The notes under the pieces were generated by a model. It searched no databases. It had not been told where the DNA came from and was given only the letters and a program-made list of their open reading frames with translations. A program made the translations under genes and the position numbers. Shown in pieces: positions 42,973 through 59,869 of a stretch of DNA of 64,000 nucleotides. The DNA is from Antarctobacter heliothermus. Lineage in GTDB: Bacteria > Pseudomonadota > Alphaproteobacteria > Rhodobacterales > Rhodobacteraceae. The stretch is from NCBI RefSeq assembly GCF_900188425.1, contig NZ_FZON01000015.1, forward strand, positions 1 through 64,000, read 5' to 3'. Positions within the stretch are counted from its first letter, which is position 1; the number at the start of each line of letters is the position of its first letter.

Positions 42973-43012
42973 TGACACGCAATTTTTCAGAGTTTGACAC
43001 GCAATTTTTCAG
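42973..43012. repeat. Two direct repeats at the prophage terminus (probable transposase end-binding sites)
   Basis: TGACACGCAATTTTTCAG occurs at 42973-42990 and again, identical, at 42995-43012, a 22-bp period or about two helical turns. The first copy begins seven bases inside the presumed TG terminus (42966). Paired transposase-binding sites near the ends are the rule for Mu-like phages. Confidence 0.7.
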
Positions 43013-43060
43013 CAAACGCTTTTTGGTCGAGCGGGCCGTCAACGCCGCTTTAAGGGCCGC

Positions 43061-44654: not shown

Positions 44655-47600
44655 ACTGCCCTCCGTCGTGCAGCCCGTTGGCCGAGCCGCTCTCGCGCCC
44701 GATACGCTCGATCTCGCGGCGCACCTCGGCCGCGATGTCCTGCGGGCTCATGCCGGGCGCCGCGTGGATATGGATATCTCCGACCGTCACGCCGCCGACC
44801 TGCTGGTTGCCGCCCGCACCCACCAGGCTGGGGCTGCGGTCGATGTTCGGCATCTCGGCCGCGATGGCCGCCGGATTGAACGACGCCAGCGCGGCCATGT
44901 CGACCGCACCGGCCGCAGCGACCGCCGGCACGCCCGCCATGGAGGCCGCCATGATCATGCGCGACACCCGCGCCGGGATTACCCGGCCGGCGACATCCGG
45001 AACGAATATCTCCTCGCCTTGCTCGTTGATGCGATAGCCGAAACCGGGCCGCACCGACCCGCCAAGGGCGCGCGCCCCGGCCGGGCGCGGTTCGCCGCTG
45101 GTGGTGCCTGTCGGCGCCGCCCCGTTGGCCGTGCCGCCAGGGAGGTTGCGCAGCGCACCGGAGAGCTCGCGCACGCGCTCAAGGGCGCGCTCGATCGACG
45201 TTACATTGATCTCCGGCGCCGCCTCGGTGTCGGACAGAACCGCGAGCGCGGCCTCCAGCTGATCCGACTGCGCCTCGGCCTCGGCGATCTGCCCGACCAG
45301 CGCCTCGAGCTCCGCCTGCGCCTGCCCGAGCCGACGGCGGCGCTCGGCCGAGGCCATCATGTCGCCCGGCCCCATCGGGCCGGTGAGCTGATCCTCCAGC
45401 GCGGCGATCTCGGCGCGCGTGGCCTCAGCCTCCTCCCGAAGCTCCGCGATGCGCTGCGCCGGCAGGGCGCTACGCCCCGCCGCCGCCTGCACCGTTTCGG
45501 CAGCCTGCCGCACCTCGGGCGTGAGCCGATTGAAGCCGGGCATGTCCGCCACGACCGGCGCCTCAACGATCGGGCTGTCATCGCGCCCCATCAGCCAGAG
45601 CAGCCAGGCGGGCGGCTCGGGCCACGTGATCAGGTCGCCGAAGTCGATCTTGCCGATGAAGCTCCAGCTCCAGTCGGGCAGGAAGTCGCTCCACTGGAAG
45701 CCGAAAATCCACTCCATCAGGGCGGTGAAGGGGGCTATCGGCAGCCAGACGGCCCAGTTGATGACCTCGATCAGATTTTCCCAGGTGAACCACTTCCTGA
45801 TTTCCTCGACATAGCCGCTGAGCGCCTCACGGCTAAGGTATTCATCCCACCCGACGGGCTTGATCAGGAAACTCCAAAGGAGCTCCCCGGCCAGGAGCGC
45901 CCAACCGATCGGGCCGATGAGGGCTCGGCCGCCGATCCTCGCGGCCCAGACGAGCGGCCTGACCAGCGCACCCCAGCCACCCCTCGTCATACCCAGAACG
46001 CCGAGGCCAAGAGAGCCCCAGCGGATGGCCGGAATTAGGCGCCGCGTCCACCTGAGGGGCGCCACCAAAGCACTCACCGCTAGCCGCGCACCGCCCGTCG
46101 CGATACTGCGGAAGCGTAGCGCCGAAAGGCGGGGGATAAGTGCCGACGCCGCCCAGCTGAGCGGCCTAAAGAGTGCCGACACCGCAAGCCTGCTACCTAC
46201 GGCCAGCGCCACCCATGTCGCCCTCGCGAGCCTTGGTATAAGCGCGCCCCACGCCAGCGCCTTGAAAAGACCCGAGACCAACAGCCGCCTCCCGCCGACT
46301 GCGAGGGTAAGGAAAAGCGACCATATGAGGCGCGGGATCAAGGCCACCCACCGGAGGGGTGTCAAGAGCCGCGACAGGCGCAACGCGCGCAGCCCTGACA
46401 GTCGCGCCATCCCGCCCACGACGCTGCCGAGCAGGCGGCCGAACATGCGCAGCGGCCATGTGGCAACCCGCAGCGCCAGACGCAGACCCATGACGCCAGC
46501 GGTCACCAGCGCCACGCCCTGCGCGACGGCTGGCGATGCCTCGATCCACTCGATCAGCTGCGCGACCACGCCGCCGAGCCAACCGCCGGCCGTCTCGCCC
46601 CACTCGGCCCACGCCTCGGCACTCGCATCGAGCGGCGCCACCAGGGCGCCGATCCATTCCGCCAGCGCCTGCGCCCGCTCGACCAGCCAGTCGAGCAGCG
46701 GGGCGGCAGGCCCGAGCGCGGCGCGCAGCCCCACGCCAAAGCCCTGGAAGAAGGCGAGCAGCCCCTCCCAGTTGTTCCAGATCCAGAGGCCCGCGAGCGC
46801 GATGCCCGCGACGATCGCGCCGATCCCGCTGGCCAGCAACGCCACGCGCAGGGCAATCATCGCCCCGCGCACCAGCGCGAAGGGGTTGAGCAGGGCCAGC
46901 AGCGCGCGCCCCAGCACCGGCAGGAAGGCAACCAGCCGCCCGCCCGCGCCGATCAGGCGCAGCACGGGCACGGCCGTGGTGAGGGCGGCATAGCGCAGAA
47001 CCAGCGAAGCAACCCGAAGGCCAAGCAGCCCCGCGGTGAATGTGCCGATCTGGGCGATCAGCTCCGGGTTTGCGTCCGCCCAGGCCGCCGCCATCTCGAC
47101 AATGGGCGCAATGCCCTCAGCGACATCGGTCAGAGCGGGCAGCAAGGCGTTTCCGGCCGCGATCGAGGCGCTCTCGGCGACGCTCGCCAGCCGTCTCAGG
47201 GAGCCCTGGGCGTTATCGTTCATCTGTGCCGCGATGCCGGCGGCCGTTCCGGCGCGATGCAGGCTTTCCGCGTACTCGTCGAGCCGCCCGGCGCCAGCCC
47301 GCTCAAGGAGGATTTCCGCCGCGCTCGACGCTTCGCGCCCGAAGATCGCGGACCGCATGCCCGCGCGCTCCGCGCTGCCGAGGTCGGCCATGGCCGCGTC
47401 AATCTCGGCGAGCAGGGTGGGCATGTCGCGCAGGTTGCCGTTGGCATCGCTGGTCTGCACACCGAGGGCCTCAAGCGCCGCCTGCCCCTCGCCGCTGGCG
47501 CTGCTCAGCCGGTCGATGACGGCACGCAGCCCGGTTCCGGCCTTGCTCCCCTGGATGCCTGCGTCACCCAGCAGGCCGGCCATCGCCGCCGTCTGCTCCA

Positions 47601-48249
47601 GCGACACACCGGCCGCCTCGGCGGCGGGCGCGACGAACTCCATTGTCGTGCCCAGCATTCGCAGATCGACGTTCGAGCTGGTGAAGGTGTTGGTCAGGAC
47701 GTCGCCGAGCCGCCCCATTTCGTCGGCCTCCATGCGGAAGCCGCTGAGAATGTTGGAGGTGATGTCAGAGGTGTCGGCAAGGCTGGTCTGCGCAGCCGAG
47801 GCCAGGTTCAACAGGCCCGGCATTGCCTCGATGGTCTCGTTCACATCGAAGCCGGCCTGCGCGAGAAACCGCATGCCGTCCGCCGCAGCGCTGGCGGCAT
47901 GCGGTGTCGTGGAGCCCAGGCGCCGCGCCTCTTCGGTCAGCCGCTCCAGCTCTTCCTGGCTGGCCCCGCTGACAGCCCCGACGCCCGCCATGGCCTCCTC
48001 GAAGCGCACCGCCGGGCGCATTGCCTGGAAGAGGGCAAAGCCCATTCCGACGGTTCCCATGGCCGCGCCGCGCATCGCCGTGCGGCTGGCCTGCGCGGCC
48101 GCGATGCTCCGGTCGGCGAAGGCGGCGGTCCGGTTGCCCGCCCGCGTCGCGCTTTCGGCGATGCCGCTGAGCGCCCCGCGAACCTGCCTTGCCGGTGCGC
48201 TGACCCGATCGACCAGTCTCAGGATCATGGCGATGTTGAGATCGCTCAT
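44641..48249 (-). CDS. Phage tail tape measure protein
   Basis: 1202 residues. The N-terminal ~350 residues are a TP901-type tape-measure core (FEEAMAGVGAVSGASQEEL ... LGSTTPHAASAAADGMRFLAQAGFD ... FVAPAAEAAGVSLEQTAAMAGLLGDAGIQG). Hydrophobic segments follow near residues 370-470. Residues ~625-765 hold about five imperfect ~33-residue units. A coiled coil (LREEAEATRAEIAALEDQL) and a C-terminal Gly/Ala-rich tail end the protein. It sets tail length during assembly; by the usual 0.15 nm per residue this implies a tail near 180 nm. Starts within the E' stop (ATGA). Confidence 0.9.
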   Translation of the reverse strand: MSDLNIAMILRLVDRVSAPARQVRGALSGIAESATRAGNRTAAFADRSIAAAQASRTAMRGAAMGTVGMGFALFQAMRPAVRFEEAMAGVGAVSGASQEELERLTEEARRLGSTTPHAASAAADGMRFLAQAGFDVNETIEAMPGLLNLASAAQTSLADTSDITSNILSGFRMEADEMGRLGDVLTNTFTSSNVDLRMLGTTMEFVAPAAEAAGVSLEQTAAMAGLLGDAGIQGSKAGTGLRAVIDRLSSASGEGQAALEALGVQTSDANGNLRDMPTLLAEIDAAMADLGSAERAGMRSAIFGREASSAAEILLERAGAGRLDEYAESLHRAGTAAGIAAQMNDNAQGSLRRLASVAESASIAAGNALLPALTDVAEGIAPIVEMAAAWADANPELIAQIGTFTAGLLGLRVASLVLRYAALTTAVPVLRLIGAGGRLVAFLPVLGRALLALLNPFALVRGAMIALRVALLASGIGAIVAGIALAGLWIWNNWEGLLAFFQGFGVGLRAALGPAAPLLDWLVERAQALAEWIGALVAPLDASAEAWAEWGETAGGWLGGVVAQLIEWIEASPAVAQGVALVTAGVMGLRLALRVATWPLRMFGRLLGSVVGGMARLSGLRALRLSRLLTPLRWVALIPRLIWSLFLTLAVGGRRLLVSGLFKALAWGALIPRLARATWVALAVGSRLAVSALFRPLSWAASALIPRLSALRFRSIATGGARLAVSALVAPLRWTRRLIPAIRWGSLGLGVLGMTRGGWGALVRPLVWAARIGGRALIGPIGWALLAGELLWSFLIKPVGWDEYLSREALSGYVEEIRKWFTWENLIEVINWAVWLPIAPFTALMEWIFGFQWSDFLPDWSWSFIGKIDFGDLITWPEPPAWLLWLMGRDDSPIVEAPVVADMPGFNRLTPEVRQAAETVQAAAGRSALPAQRIAELREEAEATRAEIAALEDQLTGPMGPGDMMASAERRRRLGQAQAELEALVGQIAEAEAQSDQLEAALAVLSDTEAAPEINVTSIERALERVRELSGALRNLPGGTANGAAPTGTTSGEPRPAGARALGGSVRPGFGYRINEQGEEIFVPDVAGRVIPARVSRMIMAASMAGVPAVAAAGAVDMAALASFNPAAIAAEMPNIDRSPSLVGAGGNQQVGGVTVGDIHIHAAPGMSPQDIAAEVRREIERIGRESGSANGLHDGGQYDRD
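45967..46372 (-). repeat. Imperfect tandem repeats inside the tape-measure gene
   Basis: About four to five units of ~33 codons follow the pattern [P/A]L.W.AxLIPRL ... LAVGxRxLVSALF: PLRWVALIPRLIW ... VSGLF, ALAWGALIPRLAR ... VSALF, PLSWAASALIPRLS ... VSALV, PLRWTRRLIPAIRW ... GALV and a partial PLVWAARIGG unit. Boundaries are approximate. They probably form repeated amphipathic helices in the tube lumen. Confidence 0.65.
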
Positions 48250-48718
48250 CGTCTCGGGCCTCCGTTCGCGCGCGCCTCCGCCTCCCTGCGCTCGCGCGCC
48301 ATGGCATGCCAGCGCGCGAGCTCTTCGATTTCCATGGCCATCATCTCGGACGGCTGGACGTGCAGGACCATGGCCACATCGGCCATGGCCTGCTCTACGT
48401 CATCGGGGAGCTTCAGGCGTTCCCCTGTGCTGCCAGCCCCTCCAGCTGCTCCGCCCTGGCGAAAAAAAGCAGCAGCTTTCCCGACAGGTCTGTGAAGTCG
48501 GCCGGGTCCAGCGCGGCCACCTGGTCGGGCGTGAGCGCGGGCCGCGTCACGCGCGGCAGGAGCGTCATCAGGGCGGTGACATCCATCTGCAGCACGTCGG
48601 TCATTTTCAGACCGCGCAACGCGCCGACCGAGGGCTTGGTGACCTCGACCTCGTGGATTTCCTTGTCACCGTTCTTGAGGGGTGCGCTCAGCCGGGTCTT
48701 GTGGGTCTTGTCGCTCAT
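48246..48718 (-). CDS. GpE+E' fusion made by programmed -1 frameshift
   Basis: After TTT at the T7 run the -1 frame stays open to TGA at 48246, past the E stop at 48413. It adds about 70 residues, including LKLPDDVEQAMADVAMVLHVQP and MMAMEIEELARWHAMARERREAE. This is the expected size and position of P2 E' and lambda GT-type extensions. The E' stop overlaps the tape-measure ATG. Confidence 0.75.
48413..48718 (-). CDS. Phage tail assembly chaperone GpE
   Basis: 101 residues, P2 gpE/TAC family: an N-terminal beta region (LSAPLKNGDKEIHEVEVTKPSVGALRGLK) then a helical part ending in LLLFFARAEQLEGLAAQ. It holds the tape measure during tail-tube assembly. Downstream it is extended by -1 frameshifting into E' (see slippery site). 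Confidence 0.82.
   Translation of the reverse strand: MSDKTHKTRLSAPLKNGDKEIHEVEVTKPSVGALRGLKMTDVLQMDVTALMTLLPRVTRPALTPDQVAALDPADFTDLSGKLLLFFARAEQLEGLAAQGNA
48461..48468 (-). promoter_or_regulatory. Slippery heptamer T TTT TTC for -1 frameshift
   Basis: On the coding strand the E frame reads CTT TTT TTC; the heptamer T_TTT_TTC allows both tRNAs to slip back one base. It lies about 50 bases before the E stop, with GC-rich sequence after it. Confidence 0.75.
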
Positions 48719-48730
48719 GGCTCAGCCTCC

Positions 48731-49228
48731 TCAGATGCCCATGGCGCGGCGCAGCTCGGCGAGCTGGTCGACCCCGCCGATGACGCGCACGCCGTTCTCG
48801 ATGTCGATCTCCCACAGCTCCTCGCCGTCCTTTTCGAGGCGGTAGTAGTCGACCTCCATGGTGATCTTCAGGGTCGACTTGTCGCCGGCCTTCAGATCCT
48901 CGGGGCCGTTGACGCTGATGCGCCCGCCCAGGGTGGCGATGTAGGTGTCGGCCGAGAAGTCGTCCTCGCCCATGGCGCCGGGGCGCATGACGAAGCGCGT
49001 GCGCCGGCCGAAGGACTTGAGCAGCGCCGGGTCCCATTCGGCGAAGGTGATCTCGGACTGCATGCCCTCCATGCCCATGTCGATCGCGACGGGGCCGTCC
49101 ATGCCCGCGCCGCGATGCGCCTCGGTGTTGAGGGTGATCGGGGGGAGTTTCGCCTCGTCGACGCGCCCGAAATAGCTCGTGCCGTCGACGAAGGCGTTGA
49201 AGTTGCGGATAGTGCGGGGGTACGCCAT
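48731..49228 (-). CDS. Phage major tail tube protein (FII)
   Basis: 165 residues of the P2 FII family: MAYPRTIRNFNAFVDGTSYFGRVDE opening (landmark), MEGMQSEITFAEWDPALLK and LKITMEVDYYRLEKDGEELWEIDIENG. Hexamers of it stack to form the rigid inner tube of the contractile tail. 12 bp after the sheath gene. Confidence 0.9.
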   Translation of the reverse strand: MAYPRTIRNFNAFVDGTSYFGRVDEAKLPPITLNTEAHRGAGMDGPVAIDMGMEGMQSEITFAEWDPALLKSFGRRTRFVMRPGAMGEDDFSADTYIATLGGRISVNGPEDLKAGDKSTLKITMEVDYYRLEKDGEELWEIDIENGVRVIGGVDQLAELRRAMGI

Positions 49229-49240
49229 TTGCCGGTCTCC

Positions 49241-50776
49241 TTAGCTGGCCTGGGCGACATCGGCGACGAGTTCTTCATAGTACTCGCCGTTGCGATGCGC
49301 GCGGAAGATGAGGTGCTCGAGCGGCGCGGGCGGCTCGATGTCGAAATCGAGATAGAGCTTGCCGGCCTTGAGCTGGGCCTCGGTGTTGAGCTCGGGATCG
49401 AGCCAGACGCGCCCGCCCAGGATCGCGCCGAGCGCCTTGAGGTGGCGCAGGTAGGCATCGACCCCGTCGCGGATGTCGTTGATCAGCTGCGCCGAGAAGG
49501 GGCGGTCCATGGCCCACAGATGCGCCTGCTCGACGCTCTCGTAGATCATGTCGGCCGTGCGGCGCACGCTCAGGAAGGCCCAGAGCGGATCGGCCGTGGT
49601 CGAGCGGTTGCCCCAGAGGCGGTAGCCGTCCTTGCGCACGATCGTCGCCACCTCGTTCTCGTTGAGGATGTTCGCGCGCGAGTTCGGATCGGACAGGCCG
49701 AAGGACACCGCCCGGGCGGTGCCGGTGATGCCGTTGATCAGCTTGTTCGAGGGCGACCACCAGAAGCCGTTGTCGGCATCGGTGCGCGCGATCACGCCCG
49801 CCACCCGCGCCGAGACCGGCGCGACCACCTCCTTGGCGGCCACGGTGTCGAACACCGTCACCCAGGGATCGACGATATAGACCCGGTCGGAGCCGAACTC
49901 GCCGCGATACTCGATCGCCTCGGTGTCGGTGGTGTTCGGGCCGTCGGCGATGATGACCGCGCGCAGCCGTTCGGCGATGCCGATCATCTCGCTGACCACG
50001 CCGGTGTTCTGGGTAAAGCCCGGAGCGATCAGGATGCGCGGCGAGACATGCACGATGCTCTCGGCCGCGGCGAGGGCTTGCAGCCCCTCGTAATCGCCGG
50101 TCACGCCGTCGACGCCACCGATGATGTTGGCCTGCGTCTCGGCGTCGTCGGTGCCCTCCTCGACCCGGACGACCACGACGACGGCGCCGGCCTGGTCGAA
50201 GATCGCGTCGAGCGCGGCGGGCAGCGTGCCCAGGCCCTGGCCGGTCGCGTCGAGCTTGGCCGCCTCGCGCCGGCTGCCCGCGATGAGCACGGGGGTGTTG
50301 AGCGGGAAGGGCTCGTCGGCGCCATCCGCCAGCTTGGTTGCCGCCTTGGCGCGCACGACGCCGGAGCCGTCGCTGGTGCCGGCATGCGTGACTGCCACCA
50401 GGGCGGCGGCATCGACGTCACCCTCGATCGCGGTCTTGACCTCGGCCGCGGTCGAGGTGATCGCGCCCTCGGCGTCGGTGGCCAGCGCCACCGAGATGGC
50501 GTTGCCGTCGACGGTCACCGCGATCGCGGCAGTGCTTTCACCGGGATCGGTGAAGGCGACCGAGATCAGGTTGCCGTCGAGACCGGCGGCCTGGGCGGTG
50601 AAGGTGAGCGCGGTATTCAGCGCGGTCGACCCCAGGGTGAGGGTTGCCGCCGTGGCGCCGGCGGCGTCGGGCGCGGTGCCCACCACCCCGATAACCGAGG
50701 AGCGGACGGTACGGATCGGGCGCAGGCCGTCGTCGATCTGGACGACCTCCACCCCGTGAAGGAACTGCTCAGACAT
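49241..50776 (-). CDS. Phage tail sheath protein (FI) with inserted adhesin-like domain
   Basis: 511 residues, about 110 longer than P2 FI. The ends match contractile sheath proteins (LHGVEVVQIDDGLRPIRTVRSSVIGVVGTAPD; FPLNTPVLIAGSRREA; NIIGGVDGVTGDYEGLQAL; LEHLIFRAHRNGEYYEELVADV, all as landmarks). Residues ~39-155 interrupt the first domain with a beta-rich module (LTFTAQAAGLDGNLISVAFTD, GNAISVALATDAEGAITSTAAEV, GSDGSGVV-like ends) resembling Ig-like decorations of phage structural proteins. Contraction of this sheath drives the tube through the target envelope. Confidence 0.9.
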   Translation of the reverse strand: MSEQFLHGVEVVQIDDGLRPIRTVRSSVIGVVGTAPDAAGATAATLTLGSTALNTALTFTAQAAGLDGNLISVAFTDPGESTAAIAVTVDGNAISVALATDAEGAITSTAAEVKTAIEGDVDAAALVAVTHAGTSDGSGVVRAKAATKLADGADEPFPLNTPVLIAGSRREAAKLDATGQGLGTLPAALDAIFDQAGAVVVVVRVEEGTDDAETQANIIGGVDGVTGDYEGLQALAAAESIVHVSPRILIAPGFTQNTGVVSEMIGIAERLRAVIIADGPNTTDTEAIEYRGEFGSDRVYIVDPWVTVFDTVAAKEVVAPVSARVAGVIARTDADNGFWWSPSNKLINGITGTARAVSFGLSDPNSRANILNENEVATIVRKDGYRLWGNRSTTADPLWAFLSVRRTADMIYESVEQAHLWAMDRPFSAQLINDIRDGVDAYLRHLKALGAILGGRVWLDPELNTEAQLKAGKLYLDFDIEPPAPLEHLIFRAHRNGEYYEELVADVAQAS

Positions 50777-50806
50777 TGAAGCCTCCTTTGAAGAGCGTGT
50801 TCAGGG

Positions 50807-50825
50807 TTCGTGAAAGCGGGCCGGA
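50807..50825 (-). repeat. VR-end-like sequence after the reverse transcriptase gene
   Basis: The minus strand reads CTCCGGCCCGCTTTCACGAA just after the RT stop. The end of the variable repeat has TTTCGGCCCGCTTTCGCGAT at 52634-52653. The core CGGCCCGCTTTC is identical and 16 of 18 bases match. It may be a relic of a second variable repeat end or mark the border of the avd-TR-RT cassette; chance is not excluded. Confidence 0.4.
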
Positions 50826-50827
50826 GC

Positions 50828-51919
50828 TCATGCGCACTGCCTCCTTTCGGGTTCGAGGGGTGCCACCTTGCGCGGCGGCGGGATGAAGACCTGCCCGCTG
50901 ACCACTTTGCGGCGCAGCGTGTAGGTCTGGGCGTGGCCGGCATGGCCGACCCAGCTGGCGACGACGCGCTGCACGCGGTCCAGGTCGATCTGGCCCTCGT
51001 GGTATTGCCGCGCCATGCGCTTCATCTTCTTGCGCATACGGCCGACGCTGTCGCGGCGCAGGAGCCGGTGCGTGGGCCAGATGCGGTAGCCGAGGAAGTC
51101 CAGCGACCGGCCGCCGGGGCGGACGGGAAAGACCTGCGTCTTGGCGTTGAGCCTGAGCGCAAGATGCGCATGCAGGAAGCCGTCGATCTCGCGGCGCAGC
51201 TCGTGCAGCCGGGCCTTGTCGGCATCCACGATCGCGAAGTCGTCCATGTAGCGCAGGTATCGCTTCACGCGCAGGTCGTTCTTCACGAAGCCGTCGAGCT
51301 CGTGGAGGTAGATGTTGGCGAAGAGCTGCGACGTCAGGCTGCCGATCGGGATGCCGCGCGGCAGCGGATCGCCGGGCTCGGCGGTGCTGTCGATGATGTC
51401 GTCGATCAGGCGCAGCGTGGGCGCGCAGGCGATGCGCCGGCGCAGGAGGCGCTTGAGCGCGTCGTGCGACACCGAGGGGAAGTACTTGGCGATGTCGGCC
51501 TTGAGCACGTAGATGCAGCCCGCCTCGCGCTGGACGGCGCGCAGCATGGCCTGCGCCCGGTCGACCCCGGCATGGGCGCCCTTGCCCGGCCGGCAGGCAT
51601 AGCTGTCATGGATGAAGCGGCACTCCCAGATGGGCTCGATCGCCTCGATCAGGGCGTGCTGGACGATGCGGTCCTTCAGCGGCAGCGCCGAGATCGCGCG
51701 CTCCTTGGGTTCGAACACCTTGAAGTGCCGGTAGGGGCCGGTGGCGTAGGCGCCCAGCCGCAGGCTTTCCTGCAGCGCGATCAGGTTCGGCTCGAGGTCG
51801 CGCTCGAAGCGCAGCACGTCCGCCTGGGCGCGGCGGCCCCGGATCACGCGGCCCCAGGCGCGGTGCAGCGCCTCGAAATCCGCGATCTGCTCGAAGAGGT
51901 TGTTGTAGGTGCAGGCCAT
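50828..51919 (-). CDS. DGR reverse transcriptase
   Basis: 363 residues. RT landmarks in order: VLKADIAKYFPSV with the first catalytic Asp (~142), IGSLTSQ (192-198), the (I/L/V)GxxxSQ form typical of DGR and retron-type enzymes rather than the QGxxxSP of group II introns, and YMDD (224-227). Thumb-like sequence follows (LDFLGYRIWPTHRLLR); there is no maturase or endonuclease domain. It copies TR RNA into cDNA with adenine-specific errors that replace the VR. ATG 51919 has GGGAAG upstream. The order target-avd-TR-RT is that of the Bordetella BPP-1 element. Confidence 0.93.
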   Translation of the reverse strand: MACTYNNLFEQIADFEALHRAWGRVIRGRRAQADVLRFERDLEPNLIALQESLRLGAYATGPYRHFKVFEPKERAISALPLKDRIVQHALIEAIEPIWECRFIHDSYACRPGKGAHAGVDRAQAMLRAVQREAGCIYVLKADIAKYFPSVSHDALKRLLRRRIACAPTLRLIDDIIDSTAEPGDPLPRGIPIGSLTSQLFANIYLHELDGFVKNDLRVKRYLRYMDDFAIVDADKARLHELRREIDGFLHAHLALRLNAKTQVFPVRPGGRSLDFLGYRIWPTHRLLRRDSVGRMRKKMKRMARQYHEGQIDLDRVQRVVASWVGHAGHAQTYTLRRKVVSGQVFIPPPRKVAPLEPERRQCA

Positions 51920-52086
51920 CACGCGACTTCCCGGATACTGGGGCGGCCGGCGCGAAGGGTCGCGCTTGCGCTACTGTCCCGCCCCGGCCTGTTCATTTTT
52001 TCCGGCACTTGGCCGAGGGATACGGGGCCTTTCGAGGGCGCGCTGGACGGCACCCCGTGAGGCACCGCCTTCCGGCTTTCCCCGAG

Positions 52087-52203
52087 AGCGGGCCGAAACC
52101 CGATGTTCGAACTCGCGTTCGAGCGCGGGTTGTTCAGGTTGAGGGCGAACACGCCGGCATTCGAGCCGTTGTTCCAGTTGCCCCCACGGATCGGCAGACG
52201 TTC
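52087..52203 (-). repeat. DGR template repeat (TR)
   Basis: 117 bp shared with the VR (52643-52759, offset 556). On the coding strand it is rich in AAC codons (GGCAACTGGAACAACGGC and further on). It contains 23 adenines; 12 differ in VR. Among the other 94 positions only one differs (T/G next to a changed A, near the 5' end). It starts at the avd stop and ends 168 bp before the RT; the intervening noncoding stretch is probably the 3' part of the template RNA. Confidence 0.93.
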
Positions 52204-52558
52204 AAGCCACATTGCCCGCACCCCTTTGCTTGAGGCTCCGGAACCAGCCGCCGACCATGCGCCCGAGCTCGTCGAGGTGACGGCTCCAGACCTCGCACTT
52301 GCGAAACGGCAGGTACTGCAGCTCGCGCGACAGCCGCACCTGGCTGCGCAGCAGGTCGAGCTCGCCGTCGAGGTCCTGCATGGTGGTCTTCTTGTGGTAG
52401 CGGCGGTTGCAGATGATGATCAGCCGCAGCACCCGCCACATGGTCTGGCGGATTTCCTGGCTCAGGACATGACGCTCCGCCTTCGGGAACTGCCGCAGCG
52501 CGACATAGCCGTAGGCGATCATCTCCTCGCATTTCCGCCTGATCTTCAGATCATCCAC
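52202..52558 (-). CDS. avd: DGR accessory variability determinant (Avd-like)
   Basis: 118 residues, basic and all-helical: RRKCEEMIAYGYVALRQFPKAERHVLSQEIR, MWRVLRLIIICNRRYHKK, DLDGELDLLRSQVRLSRELQYLP and WSRHLDELGRMVGGW define four helices (landmarks). This is the Avd/23S-intervening-sequence four-helix bundle that forms a pentamer binding RT and template RNA. The start is GTG with GGAAAAGG upstream. Its stop overlaps the first bases of TR. Confidence 0.9.
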   Translation of the reverse strand: MDDLKIRRKCEEMIAYGYVALRQFPKAERHVLSQEIRQTMWRVLRLIIICNRRYHKKTTMQDLDGELDLLRSQVRLSRELQYLPFRKCEVWSRHLDELGRMVGGWFRSLKQRGAGNVA

Positions 52559-52586
52559 TGGTTCGGGCCTTTTCCTTTGGTGTATC

Positions 52587-52606
52587 GGGCGGGCTCTCGC
52601 CCGCCC
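52587..52606 (-). promoter_or_regulatory. Hairpin/cruciform after the variable repeat
   Basis: GGGCGGGC (52587-52594), TCTC, GCCCGCCC (52599-52606): a perfect 8-bp GC stem. On the coding strand the loop is GAGA, fitting the GRNA loop consensus of hairpins that aid target recognition in characterised DGRs. It lies 36 bp beyond the VR and 24 bp beyond the target gene stop. No T-run, so not a terminator. Confidence 0.75.
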
Positions 52607-52630
52607 TGTCAGAGTTCAGGTGGGCGGATT

Positions 52631-53710
52631 TCAGATCGCGAAAGCGGGCCGAAACCCGATGAGCGAACTCGCGCTCGAGCGCGGGTTGTGCAGGCCGAGG
52701 GCGAACACGCCGGCAAACGAGCCGCTGCTCCAGTCGCCCCCACGGCGCGGCAGACGTTCCCCCTCGTTGCGCATGTAAAAGCGCCCGCGGGTCATATCGA
52801 CTGCGTGCGGGAAGAGGCCCAGAACCTTGGCGATGTCGGGCACGGTCACGCCGGCCTCGGCGGTCAGGTCCTTGTACATCTCGGATGCGCTGTTCGAGCC
52901 GTCTGACTGGCTGGTAACAGAGGTGTTGAGGATCGGGCTGCCGGTGCCGTCGGCGCCGGTCGCGTCCCATTTCAGCGTGTCGGTCGTGCCGGGCGCGACG
53001 AGCGAGCCGTCCTGGAGGATCGCCTGCCAGAGCGTGCTGGCGTCCGAGTGATCGGCATCGGTGGCGGCGGCGTTGTTGTCGGCGATGATCTGGATTTCAC
53101 CGCCCACCAGGCGCAGGCCGCGCACCCACTCCCAGACATTGCCGGTCAGGTCGGCGATGCCGGCGGGGCTGTTGTCGTGATACCAGCTGGCCGGACCCGA
53201 GCCCGTGAGGGTGCGCGCAGCACCATTGGTGTCACCCGGATCGCCGCCGTCCTGGCGCCGGCCGGTCTCGTAGGTCTGGTCGTAGTCGCGGCCGTAATCG
53301 GTGTTGCCGCGCGGCATGAAACCGTTTTTCCAGCACCACAGCGCGACCGCCGACCACTCGGCATTCGTCATCATGTGCCAGCCCGGCCCCTTGTCGGCGC
53401 AGCGCTGGTCGGCCGTGTCGAAATCGATGCTCGCCGCCGGGTCCTGACCGGGCAGAGACAGCGCGCGGTCGTCGTGGATCGTGGCCTGGAACTTGCCGAC
53501 CATGATCTCGGACTTCTGCGCACCGTCGATCGTGAAGGCCGGGTGCACGCCGCTGCCCAGGGCCGGGTCGATATCCTCGATGTTGAAGCGGGGCACGACG
53601 CACATGATCGACGGGTAGCCGCGATCGTCGTAGAGCACCGTGTTGACGCCGCCGGAGGCGGCCTCGACCGACTGCCGGAAGGCATCGGGGGCGGAGATGA
53701 TGATGGACAT
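52631..53710 (-). CDS. DGR target: formylglycine-enzyme/C-type-lectin-fold tail tip protein
   Basis: 359 residues. The N-terminal ~80 are unlike known enzymes and may attach to the tail. Residues ~85-355 have the FGE-sulfatase/CLec pattern: MVGKFQATIHD, WHMMTNAEWSAVALWCWKNGFMPRGN, AGIADLTGNVWEWVRGL, and the end RLPRRGGDWSSGSFAGVFAL ... GFRPAF where VR falls. This is the fold of most phage DGR targets; variable residues cluster on the ligand face. It probably recognises the host or target cell surface. Enzymatic use of the fold is unlikely because the catalytic Cys pair of true FGE is not evident. Confidence 0.88.
   Translation of the reverse strand: MSIIISAPDAFRQSVEAASGGVNTVLYDDRGYPSIMCVVPRFNIEDIDPALGSGVHPAFTIDGAQKSEIMVGKFQATIHDDRALSLPGQDPAASIDFDTADQRCADKGPGWHMMTNAEWSAVALWCWKNGFMPRGNTDYGRDYDQTYETGRRQDGGDPGDTNGAARTLTGSGPASWYHDNSPAGIADLTGNVWEWVRGLRLVGGEIQIIADNNAAATDADHSDASTLWQAILQDGSLVAPGTTDTLKWDATGADGTGSPILNTSVTSQSDGSNSASEMYKDLTAEAGVTVPDIAKVLGLFPHAVDMTRGRFYMRNEGERLPRRGGDWSSGSFAGVFALGLHNPRSSASSLIGFRPAFAI
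52643..52759 (-). repeat. DGR variable repeat (VR)
   Basis: The 3' end of the target gene. Relative to TR nine codons differ: Ile to Arg and eight Asn codons to Asp, Ser, Ser, Phe, Gly, His, Ser and Leu. One AAC is unchanged. The end (GGGTTTCGGCCCGCT) is invariant, as expected for the initiation-of-homing region, and differs from the TR flank just beyond 52643. Confidence 0.93.
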
Positions 53711-53716
53711 GGGGTC

Positions 53717-54067
53717 TTACTCCTCGTTTTCCGTGGGCAGCTCCGGCAGCCCGTAGAGTTGCAGGGTCACGGCCGCGAGATTGAGCGGCTGCGCGACGTG
53801 ATCCTGGTAGGTGATGGTTTCGCCGTCGCTCTCCTCGGTGACTTCGCCCAGCTCGTAGCGGCGCGGCGGGATGATGATCGTGGCGGCGTGCAGGTCGCCC
53901 TCCGGGTCGAGCCCGCCCGCGGCATCGGCGCGCAGTCCGATCACGACCTCGGCGTCGCGCTCGCGCGCGGCCAGGTCGATGACCTGGGCGGGGCTGCCGA
54001 TGTGCAGCTCGGTGCCGTCAAGGTGGTGCTCGAGCACCCGGCCTTTCGTCATGTGTTGAACGTCCAT
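53717..54067 (-). CDS. Prophage protein of unknown function upstream of the DGR target
   Basis: 116 residues, acidic, likely beta-rich (VLEHHLDGTELHIGSPAQVIDL; ATIIIPPRRYELGEV; PLNLAAVTLQLYGLPELP). It ends seven bases before the DGR target and starts eight bases after the fibre gene, so it is co-expressed with both. It could be a fibre accessory or chaperone; nothing specific is recognised. Confidence 0.6.
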   Translation of the reverse strand: MDVQHMTKGRVLEHHLDGTELHIGSPAQVIDLAARERDAEVVIGLRADAAGGLDPEGDLHAATIIIPPRRYELGEVTEESDGETITYQDHVAQPLNLAAVTLQLYGLPELPTENEE

Positions 54068-54074
54068 TTAAGCC

Positions 54075-54992
54075 TCACTGGTAGCGGGGGTTGAGAAGGG
54101 TCCAGCGGATGCGGATGTTGTCGGCCGAGCCGCTGGCCTTGATCTTGAAGCCGTTGCGCGCCTTGTCGTAGGCGGTCAGCGCGCCGACCCCGGCGAGGTT
54201 GGTCGCGCCCTCGACCTCCAGCGCGACGCCGTAATCGGCCGCGGGCAGGGCCTCGGCGAACGCCACCGAGACGAAGGGCGCTGCGTCGACCCGCCATCCG
54301 CTTTGCGGGCGCACGACGCGCAGATCGGTCAGGGTGACCGCCGACAGGTCGCCGGCCGTGTCGTTCGCGGGCAGGTCGAGCCGGTAGAGCACCAGCCCGT
54401 CATCGGGCACCTCCTGGGCCACGCCGACGCCGTAGCCGCCGGGGCCGTCATGCAGGAAGGCGTAGTAGCTCACCGCCTCGTCGGTCTCGTTGGTCGGCAC
54501 CGAGACATGGTTCGCCTCGTCGGCCAGCGTGATGGTCAGCCCGTCGATCCAGGCGCGCGACGCGCCGCTGCCCACGGTGCCGCTCTGCGACAGGTCGAGC
54601 GCGCGGATCCCCGATTTGCTCAGCACCATCCCCGAGATGACGTGCTTGTTCTTGAGCACCACCTCGCCCTGGGCGAGCACCCGGTTGCGGATCACGTCGA
54701 TCTCGCGCGACAGCACGCCGGCCAGGCCGAGCGCCTCCTGCGCGGCGCCGATGATGGCCACCTGGTGCTCGGGCGAGAGCGCCTGGAGCAGGTCGAGCCG
54801 GTCGCCCAGGGTCGCCTCGTCGCCGCGCGCCTCGACCAGCTCGTCGGCCTTCTGCTTGAGCCAGGCGGTGCGGTTGGCCAGCTGCTTGGCCTGGACGTTC
54901 GAAATCCCGTCCGGGCCGCCGACCACGGGGTCGGTGGTTTCGATCTGGTAGATGCCGCTCGGCCATGAGGCGTTTTCGGATAGGTTCGCCAT
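54075..54992 (-). CDS. Probable tail fibre protein
   Basis: 305 residues. The start ENASWPSGIYQIETTDPVVGGPDGISNVQAKQLANRTAWLKQK (landmark) is the N-terminal piece of many P2/Mu-type fibres that docks on the baseplate. A helical stretch (GDRLDLLQALSPEHQVAIIG) and a beta-rich distal part (SGWRVDAAPFVSVAF ... NIRIRWTLLNPRY) follow. It is shorter than P2 GpH, with the receptor role perhaps passed to the DGR target nearby. Confidence 0.75.
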   Translation of the reverse strand: MANLSENASWPSGIYQIETTDPVVGGPDGISNVQAKQLANRTAWLKQKADELVEARGDEATLGDRLDLLQALSPEHQVAIIGAAQEALGLAGVLSREIDVIRNRVLAQGEVVLKNKHVISGMVLSKSGIRALDLSQSGTVGSGASRAWIDGLTITLADEANHVSVPTNETDEAVSYYAFLHDGPGGYGVGVAQEVPDDGLVLYRLDLPANDTAGDLSAVTLTDLRVVRPQSGWRVDAAPFVSVAFAEALPAADYGVALEVEGATNLAGVGALTAYDKARNGFKIKASGSADNIRIRWTLLNPRYQ

Positions 54993-55005
54993 GTGTGTGT
55001 CCTCT

Positions 55006-55443
55006 CTAGAAGATGATGGTCCAGCTGCCGTCGAGGCTGATGTCGTCGGCCTTCTCGATCGCCGCGCGGGTCTTGCGCGCGAACAGCGTCCCGTCGGCCG
55101 TGATCAGCCCGAACTCGCGGATCGCCAGCCCGTTGGCCTCGGTGGTCTCGAGCCGCCAGTCGAAGCGCACCTCGCCGGCGGCCGGGTAGGCAAAGCCGCT
55201 CACCGGCTTGGTGAAGGCGCCGGTCAGCCCGGTATCGCCGGGCGCCGGCCCGTCGCCGTTGGTGCCCACGCCGATCTCGGCGATGTGCTTGCCCGCCCCG
55301 TCGCCCGCGATCAGCGCCGCCATGGCCGTGCGCGCGGCCCCGAGGATCATGTTGGGCATGGCGATCCGCTCGATGATCACGCCATCCCTGCGCACGGTGA
55401 TGTCGAGCGCGCCCCTCACTGTCAGCCTGTCGGTTGCCTGCAT
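55006..55443 (-). CDS. Tail-associated protein of unknown function
   Basis: 145 residues, likely beta-rich (ITVRRDGVIIERIAMPNMIL; AGEVRFDWRLETTEANGLAIREFGLITADGTLFARKTR, as landmarks). The last part resembles distal fibre-type domains that start with natural decoration (FGLIT-DGTLFAR), suggesting a short fibre or fibre-cap. ATG 55443 has GAGGGG upstream, while the GTG at 55455 that overlaps gpI does not. Confidence 0.6.
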   Translation of the reverse strand: MQATDRLTVRGALDITVRRDGVIIERIAMPNMILGAARTAMAALIAGDGAGKHIAEIGVGTNGDGPAPGDTGLTGAFTKPVSGFAYPAAGEVRFDWRLETTEANGLAIREFGLITADGTLFARKTRAAIEKADDISLDGSWTIIF

Positions 55444-55451
55444 CGTGCCCC

Positions 55452-56465
55452 TCACATTGCCGTCATCGCGGCGGTCTCTGCCCCGCTGTGGTAGATGCCC
55501 GCCCAGTAGGGCTGGCTCGCGTCGAAACTCAGCGCGCCGTCGTGGACCGCGCCCGCATGCCGGTGCCGGCCGTCATGCAGCCGGTGGCGCGTGAGCGTGA
55601 TCGGCATCGCCGTGTCGGCCGCCGGCGGCTGGCCCGCGCCATGGGTGATGCCCGAATGCCGGAACCGGCCGTCATGGGCCGGCGCGATCTCCATCCGGTC
55701 GGACTGGCCAAGGTCGATCCCGATCCGGGTGCGCACGCGCACGGCGTCGTGACGCCCCTCGATGTCGGTCCAGCCGGCATAGGCCACGGCCCCGCCGTGA
55801 TCCTGCGCGCCGTCATGGGCGAGGCGCATCGCATCCTCGTGCTGCGTCGTGCCGTCATAACGCCGCCCCCAGGGCAGGACGTCGGAGGCGGTGTGCGCGA
55901 CCTCGGTCTCGATGTCCTCGGCCAGCTCGGCGGTGTCGGCCACGCCGACCCGGAAGGCGAGATCGGCAAGGTGCGAGCGCACCGGCTTGACCCGGCCGAC
56001 CGCGTCGATGACGCGCGCCACGCCCTCGTCGCTCAGCCCGCGCCATTCGCCAAGGTCGAGGGTCAGGGTGAACATGGCCCAGCGGGTGCCGCCGCCATAG
56101 GTTTCGGCCCCGGCATGGGTCTCGGTGGCGTCGTAGCGCGCAACCGGCAGGCCCTCGTCGATCTCGACCTCGGCAAAGCCGATGGCCTTGAGCGCATCGC
56201 GCAGCGCGGCCGGCGTGCCCTTGCGGCGATGCACGGCGACCGAGCGGCGCAGCGTCTGGCGCTTGACCGCCTCGGGCCAGTCGGTCTCCCAGTTGTCGAC
56301 CGAGAGCGCCCAGGCCAGCCAGGGCAGATGCGCGGCCGGACAGGTGTCGGGGTTCCACAGGTGGCGCACCGGCACCGCCATCTCGTCGAGGCGCAGGCCG
56401 GCACGCTCGACGCCGCGCTCGGCCTCGGTGGCGTTGGGCGGCAGGAGAGAGGCGAACTCAGACAT
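55452..56465 (-). CDS. Phage tail protein I, with a His/Asp-rich repeat extension
   Basis: 337 residues; P2 GpI is about half that. Residues 1-190 match the GpI family (LLPPNATEAERGVERAGLRLDEMAVPVRHLWNPDTCP; VHRRKGTPAALRDALKAIGF). Residues ~197-330 contain several HDG-centred units (HDGAQDHGGA, HDGRFRHSGITHGAG, HDGRHRHAGAVHDGA), probably beta-turn repeats. GpI links baseplate wedges to fibres, so the extension may help attach the fibre set. Overlaps gpJ by 8 bp. Confidence 0.85.
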   Translation of the reverse strand: MSEFASLLPPNATEAERGVERAGLRLDEMAVPVRHLWNPDTCPAAHLPWLAWALSVDNWETDWPEAVKRQTLRRSVAVHRRKGTPAALRDALKAIGFAEVEIDEGLPVARYDATETHAGAETYGGGTRWAMFTLTLDLGEWRGLSDEGVARVIDAVGRVKPVRSHLADLAFRVGVADTAELAEDIETEVAHTASDVLPWGRRYDGTTQHEDAMRLAHDGAQDHGGAVAYAGWTDIEGRHDAVRVRTRIGIDLGQSDRMEIAPAHDGRFRHSGITHGAGQPPAADTAMPITLTRHRLHDGRHRHAGAVHDGALSFDASQPYWAGIYHSGAETAAMTAM

Positions 56466-57360
56466 CGCGACCTCCCACGCTCACGGAGATACTGCCGCAA
56501 TGGGCGGCCTGGGTGTCGTCGACCACGATGTCGGCGGCCGGCTGGATCAGCTCGACGCGCTGGACGCCCTCGACATGCAGCGCGGCAAAGAGGCCCGAGC
56601 GCGTGATGTCGTGGCCGATCCGGTGGTGGCGGGTCGCGAACGCCTCGACCGAGGCACGCGCCGCGGCGGCAACCACGTCTGCGTCGGGGCCGTGATAGAG
56701 CGTGAGCTCGGCCTCGATCGTGTAGTCGACCACGGCCGCGCTGGACACGGTGACGTGATCGGTCAGCGGGCGCACGTCCTCGGCGCCGACGGCCGCCTCG
56801 ACCGCGTCCACCAGGTCCTGCGGCGCGGTGCCGTCGCCCTCGGAGGCCAGCACCGTGACCAGAACCTCGCCGGCGCCCGGCGAGATCACGCTGGCATCGC
56901 GCACGCGCTCGTCGGCGGCGCGGGCATGGAAGAGATAGGCGCCCTCGGGGCCGGCCACGCTCTGCGCCTCGAGCGACAGCTGCACCCGCTGGCGCAGCGC
57001 GTCGTCGGCCTCCATCACCGCCGGGATCGGCGGGACGGCGTCGGGGTCGCCGGGCGAGATCGTGAGCCGCTCGACACCGAAGAGCGCGGCGAGGTTGTCG
57101 AGGTCCGCCCCGCTGGCGCGTGCCAGCATCACGGCCTCGGCCGCGTCATTGACCCGCTGGCGCAGCAGCAGCTCGCGATAGGCGAATGCCTCGATCAGCT
57201 TGACCACCGGCTCGCTTTCCAGCGCCAGCACATCGGCGAGCTCGGGCGCGGCCGCCTCGACATCGGCCTTGATGGCCGCGACGATGGCCTCGTAGTCGAG
57301 GGTTTCGACGACATCGGGGGGTGTGAGTGCCGACAGGTCGATCTGGACGAAGCGGCTCAT
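56458..57360 (-). CDS. Baseplate assembly protein J
   Basis: 300 residues, P2 GpJ / Mu gp47 family: APELADVLALESEPVVKLIEAFAYRELLLRQRVNDAAEAVMLARASGADLDNLAALFGVERL and DALRQRVQLSLEAQSVAGPEGAYLFHARAAD (landmarks). It builds the wedge arms of the baseplate. Start 57360 overlaps the gpW stop (ATGA). Confidence 0.88.
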   Translation of the reverse strand: MSRFVQIDLSALTPPDVVETLDYEAIVAAIKADVEAAAPELADVLALESEPVVKLIEAFAYRELLLRQRVNDAAEAVMLARASGADLDNLAALFGVERLTISPGDPDAVPPIPAVMEADDALRQRVQLSLEAQSVAGPEGAYLFHARAADERVRDASVISPGAGEVLVTVLASEGDGTAPQDLVDAVEAAVGAEDVRPLTDHVTVSSAAVVDYTIEAELTLYHGPDADVVAAAARASVEAFATRHHRIGHDITRSGLFAALHVEGVQRVELIQPAADIVVDDTQAAHCGSISVSVGGRDV

Positions 57361-57695
57361 GCGCCACCTCCCAGGGCGGTGCGCACCGCCCGGGTGACGC
57401 CGGCGACGTCGCCCTCGACCACCAGGTCGAAGCGCCCGGCCTCGGCCCGCTCCACCTGGACGCGGCGCGCGCGGAAGCGCGGCTCCCACTCGGCGAGCGC
57501 CTCGGCGGTGGCAAGGAAGATGTCGACGACCGTCTCGCCGTTCATCGGCTGGTCGACGATCTCGGCCAGGCGCGAGCCGTAGTCGCGCCGCATGACCCGG
57601 CTGCCCACCGGCGTCATCAGGATATCCGCGATCGACTGCTCCAGGTGCGCGGCGTCGTCGATCCGGCGCAGGGATGTGGTTGCAAGCCCCGCCAT
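57357..57695 (-). CDS. Baseplate assembly protein W (GPW/gp25 family)
   Basis: 112 residues: IDDAAHLEQSIADILMTPVGSRVMRRDYGSRL and NGETVVDIFLATAEALAEWEPRF match the gp25/GpW lysozyme-like fold of the baseplate inner ring. It anchors the sheath to the baseplate. ATG 57695 with GGGAAG upstream is preferred to the GTG one codon earlier; TGATG overlap with gpV. Confidence 0.87.
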   Translation of the reverse strand: MAGLATTSLRRIDDAAHLEQSIADILMTPVGSRVMRRDYGSRLAEIVDQPMNGETVVDIFLATAEALAEWEPRFRARRVQVERAEAGRFDLVVEGDVAGVTRAVRTALGGGA

Positions 57696-58144
57696 CACTG
57701 CGGCTTCCCGGTGACCGAGCCGATGCTCTCGGGGTGGATGTGATTGACCAGGCTGATGCCGTTCGCGATCACGTCCTGGGTGACCGTGACGGTGCCGTCG
57801 ATCTTGATGTCGCCGATGATCGACAGGATCGAGCCGCCGAGATCGATGGTCGGGGTGGCCGCATCGGGCGCCACGGCGCCCCCGTCAACGGGGATTGAAG
57901 GGCCGATGAAGGCCCGCTCCATGTCGCCCCGCGGGGCATAGACCACGACCTGCTCGCCCGGCGAGGGCATCCACTGGAACCGGACGGTTCCCGAGCGCAG
58001 CTGCGTGACGGGCAGCGGCTGGGTGTCGAGCCCGCCGATGCGCACACGGGCACGGTTGGCGCCGGTGTCGATCGCGGTGACCGCGCCGACCTGGACGATA
58101 TTGGTGGCACGGCGATCGGCCTCGGCGTGCTGGAACCCAGCCAT
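57695..58144 (-). CDS. Baseplate spike protein V
   Basis: 149 residues. The OB domain is seen in RATNIVQVGAVTAIDTGANRARVRIGG and FQWMPSPGEQVVVYAPRGD; then a repeat-type spike (IDLGGSILSIIGDIKIDGTVTVTQDVIANG) and the tip VNHIHPE. The HxH motif is like that of P2 and phi92 spike tips, where six histidines of the trimer bind iron. It punctures the target outer membrane. Confidence 0.88.
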   Translation of the reverse strand: MAGFQHAEADRRATNIVQVGAVTAIDTGANRARVRIGGLDTQPLPVTQLRSGTVRFQWMPSPGEQVVVYAPRGDMERAFIGPSIPVDGGAVAPDAATPTIDLGGSILSIIGDIKIDGTVTVTQDVIANGISLVNHIHPESIGSVTGKPQ

Positions 58145-58701
58145 CAGCTCGCCCCTCCAATCTCGGTGTAGTCGCCCTCATGCTCGGCGCCGACCTCCGG
58201 GGCCTGGCCGAGATAGAGCTCGATCGCCAGCGGCTCGGGTGTCGTGTAGCCCTGCACGACGGCGGGCTGCGACCAGGTGACGGCCCAGAGGCTCGTCGCC
58301 GCGTCGCGCGTCTCGGGGGTGACCAGCGATTGCAGGCGCACGGCGCGCGCCTGGCCGAGCGCACTCTCGCCCCAGGCGTTGTCGGGGATCATGCTCAGCA
58401 GCACCTGGCCGATATTGGCCGCCGCCGCGTCGCGAGGCAGGCCGAGCCGGTCCTTGGTGACGATGAAGGCCGCCATGTCGAGCAGGAAGCCGTGATGCGG
58501 CCCGGTCCAGTCCTGCTCCTGGCGCGCGCCGAGATGGGCGACCAGAACGGCCGGGTGGCGGATGGACTGCTTGCGCAGCTCGCCCACGGAAAACCGCCCC
58601 GCGATGCCGCGGCATTCGGCGAGATCGGGGATCCGCGTGGCCACCTGCGTGGCGATGACGTCGGGCAGCGTGGCAAGGAGATCGTCGCGCACTTCGCTCA
58701 T
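58144..58701 (-). CDS. Mu gp37-like (DUF1834) tail protein
   Basis: 185 residues. RHPAVLVAHLGARQEQDW, MAAFIVTKDRLGLPRDAAAANIGQVL and ATSLWAVTWSQPAVVQ are consistent with the gp37/DUF1834 family, which lies after gp36 in Mu-type genomes and is thought to act at the head-tail or tail terminator region. TGATG overlap with gpV, ATGA with gpG. Confidence 0.75.
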   Translation of the reverse strand: MSEVRDDLLATLPDVIATQVATRIPDLAECRGIAGRFSVGELRKQSIRHPAVLVAHLGARQEQDWTGPHHGFLLDMAAFIVTKDRLGLPRDAAAANIGQVLLSMIPDNAWGESALGQARAVRLQSLVTPETRDAATSLWAVTWSQPAVVQGYTTPEPLAIELYLGQAPEVGAEHEGDYTEIGGAS

Positions 58702-59177
58702 TGCAGCAGGTCTCCCAGCCGGTCGGCGACGAAGGTCTCGATCTCCTGGCGATCATCGTCCGACAGCCCCAGATAGGGGCGCGCCGGGATGTCGCCGAAT
58801 GGGATGGGGCTGCCGCGCGAGGTGTTGCCGAAGGCGCCCTGGGCGGCGCCGAACTGGTGCACCGCGGCATAGACCATGTTGCTGCCGACCTCGACCTCGG
58901 TCGGGCTGGCGTAGCGCTGGATGCTTTCCAGCAGGCCGGGGTTGCCCGAGGCCACGAGCAGCGAGTGCTGGGCGCGGCGGGTGGCGGCGTAGTCGGCCGA
59001 CCAGTCCGCCCAGGGCGTGCCGTCCGGCGCGGTCTTCTCGTCGGCGATGCGCACCTTGGTGCTGTCCTCGACGATCGCGCCGACCTCATCGAGGATCTGC
59101 GCGGCGTCGAAGCCCGCCAGGCGCTGCAGCCCGTCGAGCGCGGCCTCCATGCCTTCGGTGGTCAGAGTGACAGCCAT
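58698..59177 (-). CDS. Phage virion morphogenesis protein (Mu gpG-like)
   Basis: 159 residues with the phage virion morphogenesis pattern: LVASGNPGLLESIQRYASPTEVEVGSNMVYAAVHQFG and IPARPYLGLSDDDRQEIETFVADRLGDLL (landmarks). In Mu and P2 relatives it is involved in tail completion or head-tail joining. Start 59177 shares a base with the stop of the fused ORF upstream (TGATG). Confidence 0.8.
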   Translation of the reverse strand: MAVTLTTEGMEAALDGLQRLAGFDAAQILDEVGAIVEDSTKVRIADEKTAPDGTPWADWSADYAATRRAQHSLLVASGNPGLLESIQRYASPTEVEVGSNMVYAAVHQFGAAQGAFGNTSRGSPIPFGDIPARPYLGLSDDDRQEIETFVADRLGDLLQ

Positions 59178-59695: not shown

Positions 59696-59696
59696 G

Positions 59697-59840
59697 TCAT
59701 GCCCCGCCCATGCCCAGTTCGACGCGAAGCTGTTCCTGCCGGGCCAGCAGTTCGAGCTCGCGGCCCACGTCGCCGCGGTCGTTCGCCACCGCGATACCCC
59801 ACTGGATGCGCCAGTATTCGTCCATCTTGTCGGCCTTCAT
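59697..59840 (-). CDS. Small early prophage protein
   Basis: 47 residues, acidic (MDEYWRIQWGIAVANDRGDVG). GGGAGGA lies just ahead of the ATG. It ends one base before the GemA-gp36 fusion start. No function recognised. Confidence 0.55.
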   Translation of the reverse strand: MKADKMDEYWRIQWGIAVANDRGDVGRELELLARQEQLRVELGMGGA

Positions 59841-59869
59841 GGTCAGTCCTCCCTGTTTGTGTTCACGGC

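Follow-up and report, generated by a model that had tools for sequence, protein, structure and literature searches.

A diversity-generating retroelement that very probably diversifies two genes from one template in a Mu-like phage lineage, seen in a defective prophage of Antarctobacter heliothermus

Cassette, template repeat, and variable repeats

The DNA analyzed here is a 64,000-base stretch from Antarctobacter heliothermus (hereafter the window), namely, bases 1 to 64,000 of NZ_FZON01000015.1, a contig of 93,536 bases (hereafter C66), which carries a diversity-generating retroelement (DGR) inside a Mu-like element. The DGR of Bordetella phage BPP-1, used here for comparison, has one target and the gene order mtd-avd-TR-brt. 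In the window, a target gene (target 1), avd, a template repeat (TR), and a reverse transcriptase (RT) gene follow one another in the same order, all on the minus strand (Table 1). The RT possesses intact IGSLTSQ and YMDD motifs and has no match in this genome other than itself (E ≤ 0.001). It is accompanied by an Avd accessory protein, and target 1 aligned over residues 2–358 with TaqVP (PDB code 5vf4), a homology that gives it a C-type lectin (CLec) fold. An initial annotation, made from the window alone, had reported these four parts in BPP-1 order, both RT motifs in open frames, and a lectin-type target, and our results agree with it on each of these points. The cassette is a textbook DGR. 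Target 1 is most likely a host-recognition protein, presumably acting in the tail.

Across their 121 positions, TR and the variable repeat of target 1 (VR1) show 14 mismatches, which fall on 12 adenines, one T, and one C of TR. TR contains 23 adenines in all (hypergeometric P = 8.6e-9), and in the core of the repeat (columns 16–116) all 11 differences are at TR adenines. The 117-bp repeat with 13 differences, 12 of them at adenines, given in the initial annotation is the same repeat, a few bases shorter, and the translations agree with its count of nine altered residues, eight of them from Asn. The sole change at another base within the 117-bp stretch is at column 13 (ATC to CGC), at the 5′ border. 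Among the 20 shown of 22 direct-repeat families between 49500 and 55000, TR/VR1 was the longest, and the next longest had a reference copy of 38 nt.

The genome contains exactly three perfect copies of a 15-nt string from the 3′ end of TR, of which TR and VR1 hold one each and the last is at C66 66920–66934. The third copy belongs to a second variable repeat (VR2; C66 66913–67033) at the 3′ end of a gene located past the end of the window (target 2; C66 66905–68062, 385 aa by its likely start), 14.7 kb from TR. The TR/VR2 core (columns 16–116) contains 11 differences, all 11 at TR adenines. Four further genome matches to the string, each with one mismatch, were rejected as variable repeats, their agreement with TR reaching at most 52 of 121 sites. 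The initial annotation had described a complete DGR with its target gene; the parts of its cassette are real, but the second target lies outside the window and was invisible to it. A CLec fold is predicted for target 2 by homology: its CLec part matched a tail-protein family (phrog_5302, 7.6e-36) and the family of target 1 (phrog_2889, 1.3e-30), and a profile built from its alignment matched 5vf4 (E = 8.5e-16). The mean pLDDT of an AlphaFold2 model from a 7-row alignment was 37.6, and we draw no structural claim from it.

Table 1. Features of the DGR cassette and of the surrounding element
Feature	Position	Strand	Details
Mu-like element	42966..64000 in window; whole, C66 42966-70031 (27,066 bp)	-	TGT...ACA ends
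5-bp target-site duplication, GCAGA	left, 42961..42965; right, C66 70032-70036	.	flanks of element
Tape measure	44641..48249	-	1202 aa; PF10145 2.1e-48
Tail tube FII	48731..49228	-	PF04985 2.9e-47; PHROGs family name "head closure"
Tail sheath	49241..50776	-	PF04984 8.1e-24
DGR reverse transcriptase (RT)	50828..51922	-	364 aa; IGSLTSQ and YMDD; RVT_1 6.4e-21; phrog_1423 2.5e-140
Template repeat (TR)	52083..52203	-	121 bp, 23 A; would also serve VR2
avd	52202..52558	-	118 aa; PF22296 bAvd 2.6e-28; phrog_3206 1.8e-41
Hairpin 3′ of VR1	52587..52606	-	8-bp GC stem, GAGA loop
Target 1	52631..53710	-	359 aa; FGE-type CLec, tail module; PF03781 1.1e-6; phrog_2889 1.8e-146; PDB 5vf4 6.8e-109
Variable repeat 1 (VR1)	52639..52759	-	repeat comparison with TR
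Deletion junction	59499..59500	.	11,734 bp of near-identical relative absent here
MuB-type transposition ATPase	61813..62580	-	phrog_296 4.8e-60
MuA-type transposase	62618..64000 in window; whole, C66 62618-64762	-	DDE_2 1.5e-47 (window part); phrog_310 6.2e-166 (whole)

Natural alleles and homing signals

A near-identical relative of the element is present in two IMG/VR contigs, 3300039191_000174 (L012) and 3300039191_000291 (L063, L131, and L136), which are 99.65–99.89% identical to it; we assume that L012 and L063/L131 come from a single phage. L012 encodes an RT 100% identical to ours and carries an identical TR. Over 27,027 aligned bases, 63 differences separate the relative from our element (one of them, at 42965, in the host flank). 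VR1 and VR2, 242 bp together, hold 26 of the 63 (14 in VR1 and 12 in VR2), so that the rate is 10.7% in the variable repeats and 0.14% in the rest of the alignment (Fisher P = 3.8e-37). All but two of the 26 fall on TR adenines (24 of 26). VR2 of L063 has 14 core differences from TR, all at adenines. Another relative, L013 (97.4–97.7% identical), shares our TR but carries a third VR1 allele, whose 18 differences from ours in columns 0–116 are likewise all at adenines. Both variable repeats have therefore diversified in nature, and these alleles support RT-dependent mutagenic retrohoming. The initial annotation had proposed comparing VR among sister strains, and in these near-identical phages the alleles do differ almost only at template adenines. 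Its further view that the system looks active is borne out by the natural alleles for the DGR of the phage lineage, but not for this prophage, which lacks lysis, packaging, and capsid genes (see below).

The 3′ ends of the variable repeats also differ from that of TR. Column 117 is C in TR and T in all five close alleles (VR1 of ours, L012, and L013; VR2 of ours and L063), so that this change would mark the VR-type end (initiation of mutagenic homing, IMH) versus the TR-type end (IMH*). In BPP-1, a hairpin with a GRNA loop 3′ of VR is required for efficient homing (PMC3240598). The hairpin that follows VR1 has a GC stem and a 4-nt loop of this kind (z = −3.70). The signal is partly present after VR2, where a hairpin at C66 66869–66886 has a 7-bp stem in the centroid structure and a TCCG loop (z = −2.41); at the same position L170, another phage with target 2, has a GAAA loop. 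The flank of TR at the matching position has no such hairpin (z = −0.06).

The Mu-like prophage and its deletion

The ends of the element agree with the points where the near-identical relatives cease to match, and a 5-bp target-site duplication and MuA- and MuB-type genes identify it as Mu-like; it also carries a DUF3164 gene. The initial annotation of a Mu-like prophage thus holds for the transposition genes and the duplication; the tail genes, however, lie in what we take to be the order of P2 (S, V, J, I, fibre, sheath, tube, E, tape measure, U, X, and D). The tape measure protein is 100 residues shorter than that of L012 (1302 aa); the difference lies in a Trp-rich repetitive segment (window 45789–45834) and may reflect a change in tail length or an assembly collapse. 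Two tRNAs called by ARAGORN (44861–44951 and 57540–57614) are inside tail genes and were set aside as probably spurious chance matches. The element sits directly behind a gene cluster at 36619–42950, which we read as devoted to the outer membrane and lipid A, its last gene being lpxB-like; the names for the host flanks (lpxB-like and transketolase-like) are our own reading.

The head, packaging, and lysis gene set of this copy is incomplete. Among the family matches of the element, head or packaging functions appeared only in the PHROGs names for the tail tube and for a 185-aa open reading frame (ORF) at 58144–58701 (portal, 2.2e-12). The 11,734 bp missing at the junction encode, in the relative, an amidase, the small and large terminase subunits, a portal, a minor head protein, a protease, and a capsid protein; L131/L136 carry Portal_Mu, Mu-like_gpT, terminase, and amidase. 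A search of this genome with 9,701 bases of the absent stretch as a probe gave no match, but the probe matched both of two control records. The matches on the two sides of the junction overlap by 2 nt, and the ORF at 58698–59657 (319 aa) is a fusion across it, inside which lies the start of what is, in the intact relative, a gpS-like gene. With the stretch restored, TR and VR2 would be ~26 kb apart. Because the deletion took lysis, packaging, and head genes, this copy is very probably a defective prophage with an intact DGR; lacking lysis, packaging, and capsid genes, it should produce no heads, lysis, or infectious particles by its own genes.

Two other accounts of the missing stretch were considered. 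The prophage could be whole and the 11.7-kb deletion an artefact of assembly, since the assembly is a draft of 159 contigs and the flanking matches share only 2 nt at the junction; given the null result with the probe, both controls found, and a stated genome completeness of 100%, we regard this as improbable. The open frames of the tail and DGR genes beside the loss of the head genes would also suit a domesticated tailocin whose killing range is tuned by the DGR. Against this, the lysis amidase lies within the missing part, the junction is crossed by none of the relatives that reach it (L063, L131, L123, L132, L133, L014, and L134), and the loss looks recent because the intact relative is 99.65–99.89% identical; a tailocin is, if anything, slightly less credible than the artefact. 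A real and probably recent deletion in a prophage remains our preferred explanation.

Spread and possible role of the second target

RT relatives (E ≤ 1e-30) were found in two of 394 genomes of the family, including our own, and target 2 (E ≤ 1e-40) only in our own among 390 genomes of the order. Target 2 was also traced in 20 chosen records, which carry RT relatives or are close kin. Each of the 20 gave some match at E ≤ 0.001, in most cases within the VR end or the domain shared with target 1. The records are partly redundant: G396 and G317 agree in their coordinates and probably represent a single genome, the TR and VRs of G405 equal those of G396, and those of G412 equal those of G394. When VR2 was scored against the TR of its own record over columns 16–112, the differences at TR adenines were 14/14 in G411, 10/10 in G412/G394, 11/11 in G405/G396, 14/15 in G395, and 10/10 in G413. 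VR2 of L171 scored 9/10 against the TR of L019, the two being contigs of metagenome 3300038336 that we assume to be one phage. Altogether, target 2 appears to be served by the TR of the tail target in seven phages, with ours counted together with G411 and with G404 (Castellaniella) as the weakest case. In a wider scan of all 64 loci from two RT searches (51 viral and 13 genomic), no TR was found in 12 and a TR without VR in 3; the other 49 had a TR/VR pair. All core differences were at TR adenines in 33 of these pairs, one exception occurred in 12, and four fitted worse (L028, L049, L050, and L146), although for L028 the scan probably took TR for VR and vice versa. Some of the loci depend on one another: among 17 loci compared, at least five pairs are identical in both TR and VR1.

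Target 2 is kept in the early regions of different Mu backbones, because it follows DUF3164 in L170, L171, and L172, whose MuA proteins are only 34–36% identical to ours, and in L170 it precedes the late activator and amidase genes. Its place within the early region varies: it lies at 5739–6929, after DUF3164, in L170 and before the ParB-like and MuA genes in C66. From these differing places, it seems to move as a unit. On its other side in C66 is a small gene without a Pfam match, which we presume to be Ner-like, and an S24 repressor gene is located nearby (68431–69105); support for the ParB-like gene is a weak match (6.6e-5) that falls short of the curated cut-off. PADLOC (E ≤ 0.001) gave no defence match for target 2 and six neighbouring or nearby genes, and a defence-gene neighbourhood was discarded on this result. 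Only the RT was matched, by 74 models; most of the 25 listed were RT-based.

Pigmentiphaga humi (L142, 9349–12756) possesses two adjacent DGRs with two avd, two RT, and two TR. The same arrangement is present in the same region of L035 (IMGVR 2574180442), where the locus likewise held no VR for the second TR; G408, of this record, has both RTs. The remote target 2 homologue of Pigmentiphaga does not fit TR1 (18/43 differences at adenines) but fits TR2 (15/15 at adenines, columns 18–117), and no VR for TR2 was found on either strand within the 21-kb L142 locus. Target 2 of Pigmentiphaga is thus probably served by the second DGR.

Taken together, these comparisons make it very likely that a single template in the DGR of a Mu-like phage lineage serves to diversify two genes and that the copy in A. 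heliothermus is a defective prophage. With the retrohoming steps taken over from BPP-1, a single scheme would connect the cassette parts, the adenine-limited differences and natural allelic divergence documented at both variable repeats, and the missing stretch. The TR RNA would be reverse transcribed with the help of Avd, template adenines would be miscopied in this step, and the cDNA would replace the 3′ end of each gene bearing the matching end sequence and a downstream hairpin; a deletion would have removed the lysis, packaging, and head genes from the present copy. Several points weigh against this reading. Of the 14 VR1 differences from L012, the two in columns 13 and 17, on the 5′ border, concern TR bases other than adenine. 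The TCCG loop after VR2 is outside the published GRNA consensus, though VR2 alleles have diverged. A long match to target 2 (E ≤ 4.3e-29) occurs in just 10 of the 20 records, so that target 2 is an accessory gene. The end of target 2 in G404 fits TR in part (17/26 at adenines; 17/22 from column 22), and the homologue in G408 (IMGVR 2574180442), which fits neither TR (TR1, 12/38; TR2, 9/20 at adenines), was counted as non-supporting. Finally, the VR changes could be older than the deletion, and DGR activity in this particular strain is something that we infer from sequence.

The remoteness of VR2 from the RT, its departing hairpin loop, and the 10 records without a long match would also be expected if the DGR had a single target and VR2 were a passive duplicate of VR. 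Against this, VR2 differs between our element and L063 at 12 sites, all at TR adenines, over a background of 0.14%, and it shows an adenine bias in six other phages (weaker in G404, and in L019/L171 joined from two contigs by assumption); we consider this the least probable of the alternatives. What target 2 does is a more evenly balanced question. Its match to phrog_5302 and the N-termini of its distant homologues in L174 and L176, which look tail-fibre-like in our reading of the sequences, make it quite conceivable, if short of probable, that target 2 is merely a second virion tail protein; its position with the early genes, outside the late tail module, in two Mu backbones that clearly differ from each other speaks against this. 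Action inside the cell is favoured by this early-gene setting and by the absence of a strongly hydrophobic stretch (highest 19-residue mean, 1.21), and the tail proteins among its family members weigh against it. We put forward an intracellular role only tentatively, as somewhat the more doubtful of the two.

The elements of this two-target layout are already known from other systems, of which it is a variant: DGRs in Mu-like phages, multiple or remote VRs, two-target phage cassettes, and distal second VRs. Our DGR has the gene order of BPP-1. It also resembles BPP-1 in adenine-limited TR/VR differences, the VR-specific 3′ end, and the hairpin after VR (PMC3240598), as well as in its RT (40.6% identical over 92% of the query), and differs from it by having a second, remote target in a Mu-like phage. 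TaqVP, the homologue of target 1, serves as variable protein in a DGR with avd and TR from a Thermus aquaticus prophage (PMC6328139), and many genes of T. aquaticus prophages are annotated as Mu-like (PMC4605624); the accessible part of the former paper describes no second target. A second VR at a long distance from the RT cassette was reported for four species of gut prophage in Nature in 2025, but that VR is near counter-defence genes such as a methyltransferase, whereas ours is in a Mu-like early region and recurs across related phages (PMC12629997). The two-target tentaclin DGRs of phages also combine one TR with two CLec targets, both of which, unlike ours, are in the cassette and have differing topologies (PMC10743442). 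The hankyphage is a transposable phage with a DGR (PMC12135933), and Bacillus phage BalMu-1, Mu-like going by its name, has an RT matching ours; no early-region second target was seen for either in the material covered. Several VRs per DGR, some of them far off, are known from cyanobacterial remote variable proteins (PMC7517822) and multi-VR DGRs (PMC3521204, PMC6642488), although the portions available describe no fixed early locus within a phage genome. In the open-licence literature, we found no paper on a DGR in a Rhodobacteraceae prophage and, in titles and the beginnings of abstracts, none on a recurrent early-region DGR target. Surveys of RT neighbourhoods overlook such remote targets, and a 2021 metagenome survey itself states that RT-adjacent searching misses them (PMC8144416).

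As a tentative extension, which we hold to be possible rather than probable, one DGR of transposable phages may act as the hypermutator of two proteins, a receptor binder in the tail and an early, intracellular protein of lectin type whose partners would be variable host molecules such as defence proteins or the regulators of rival prophages. The pair would travel between Mu backbones, and one lineage would have built a second DGR just for the early target. Phage DGRs are usually explained by tail-based switching of host range. A recurrent early-region target that shares its template with the tail gene is not accounted for by host-range switching alone and suggests that phages put targeted hypermutation to a second use.

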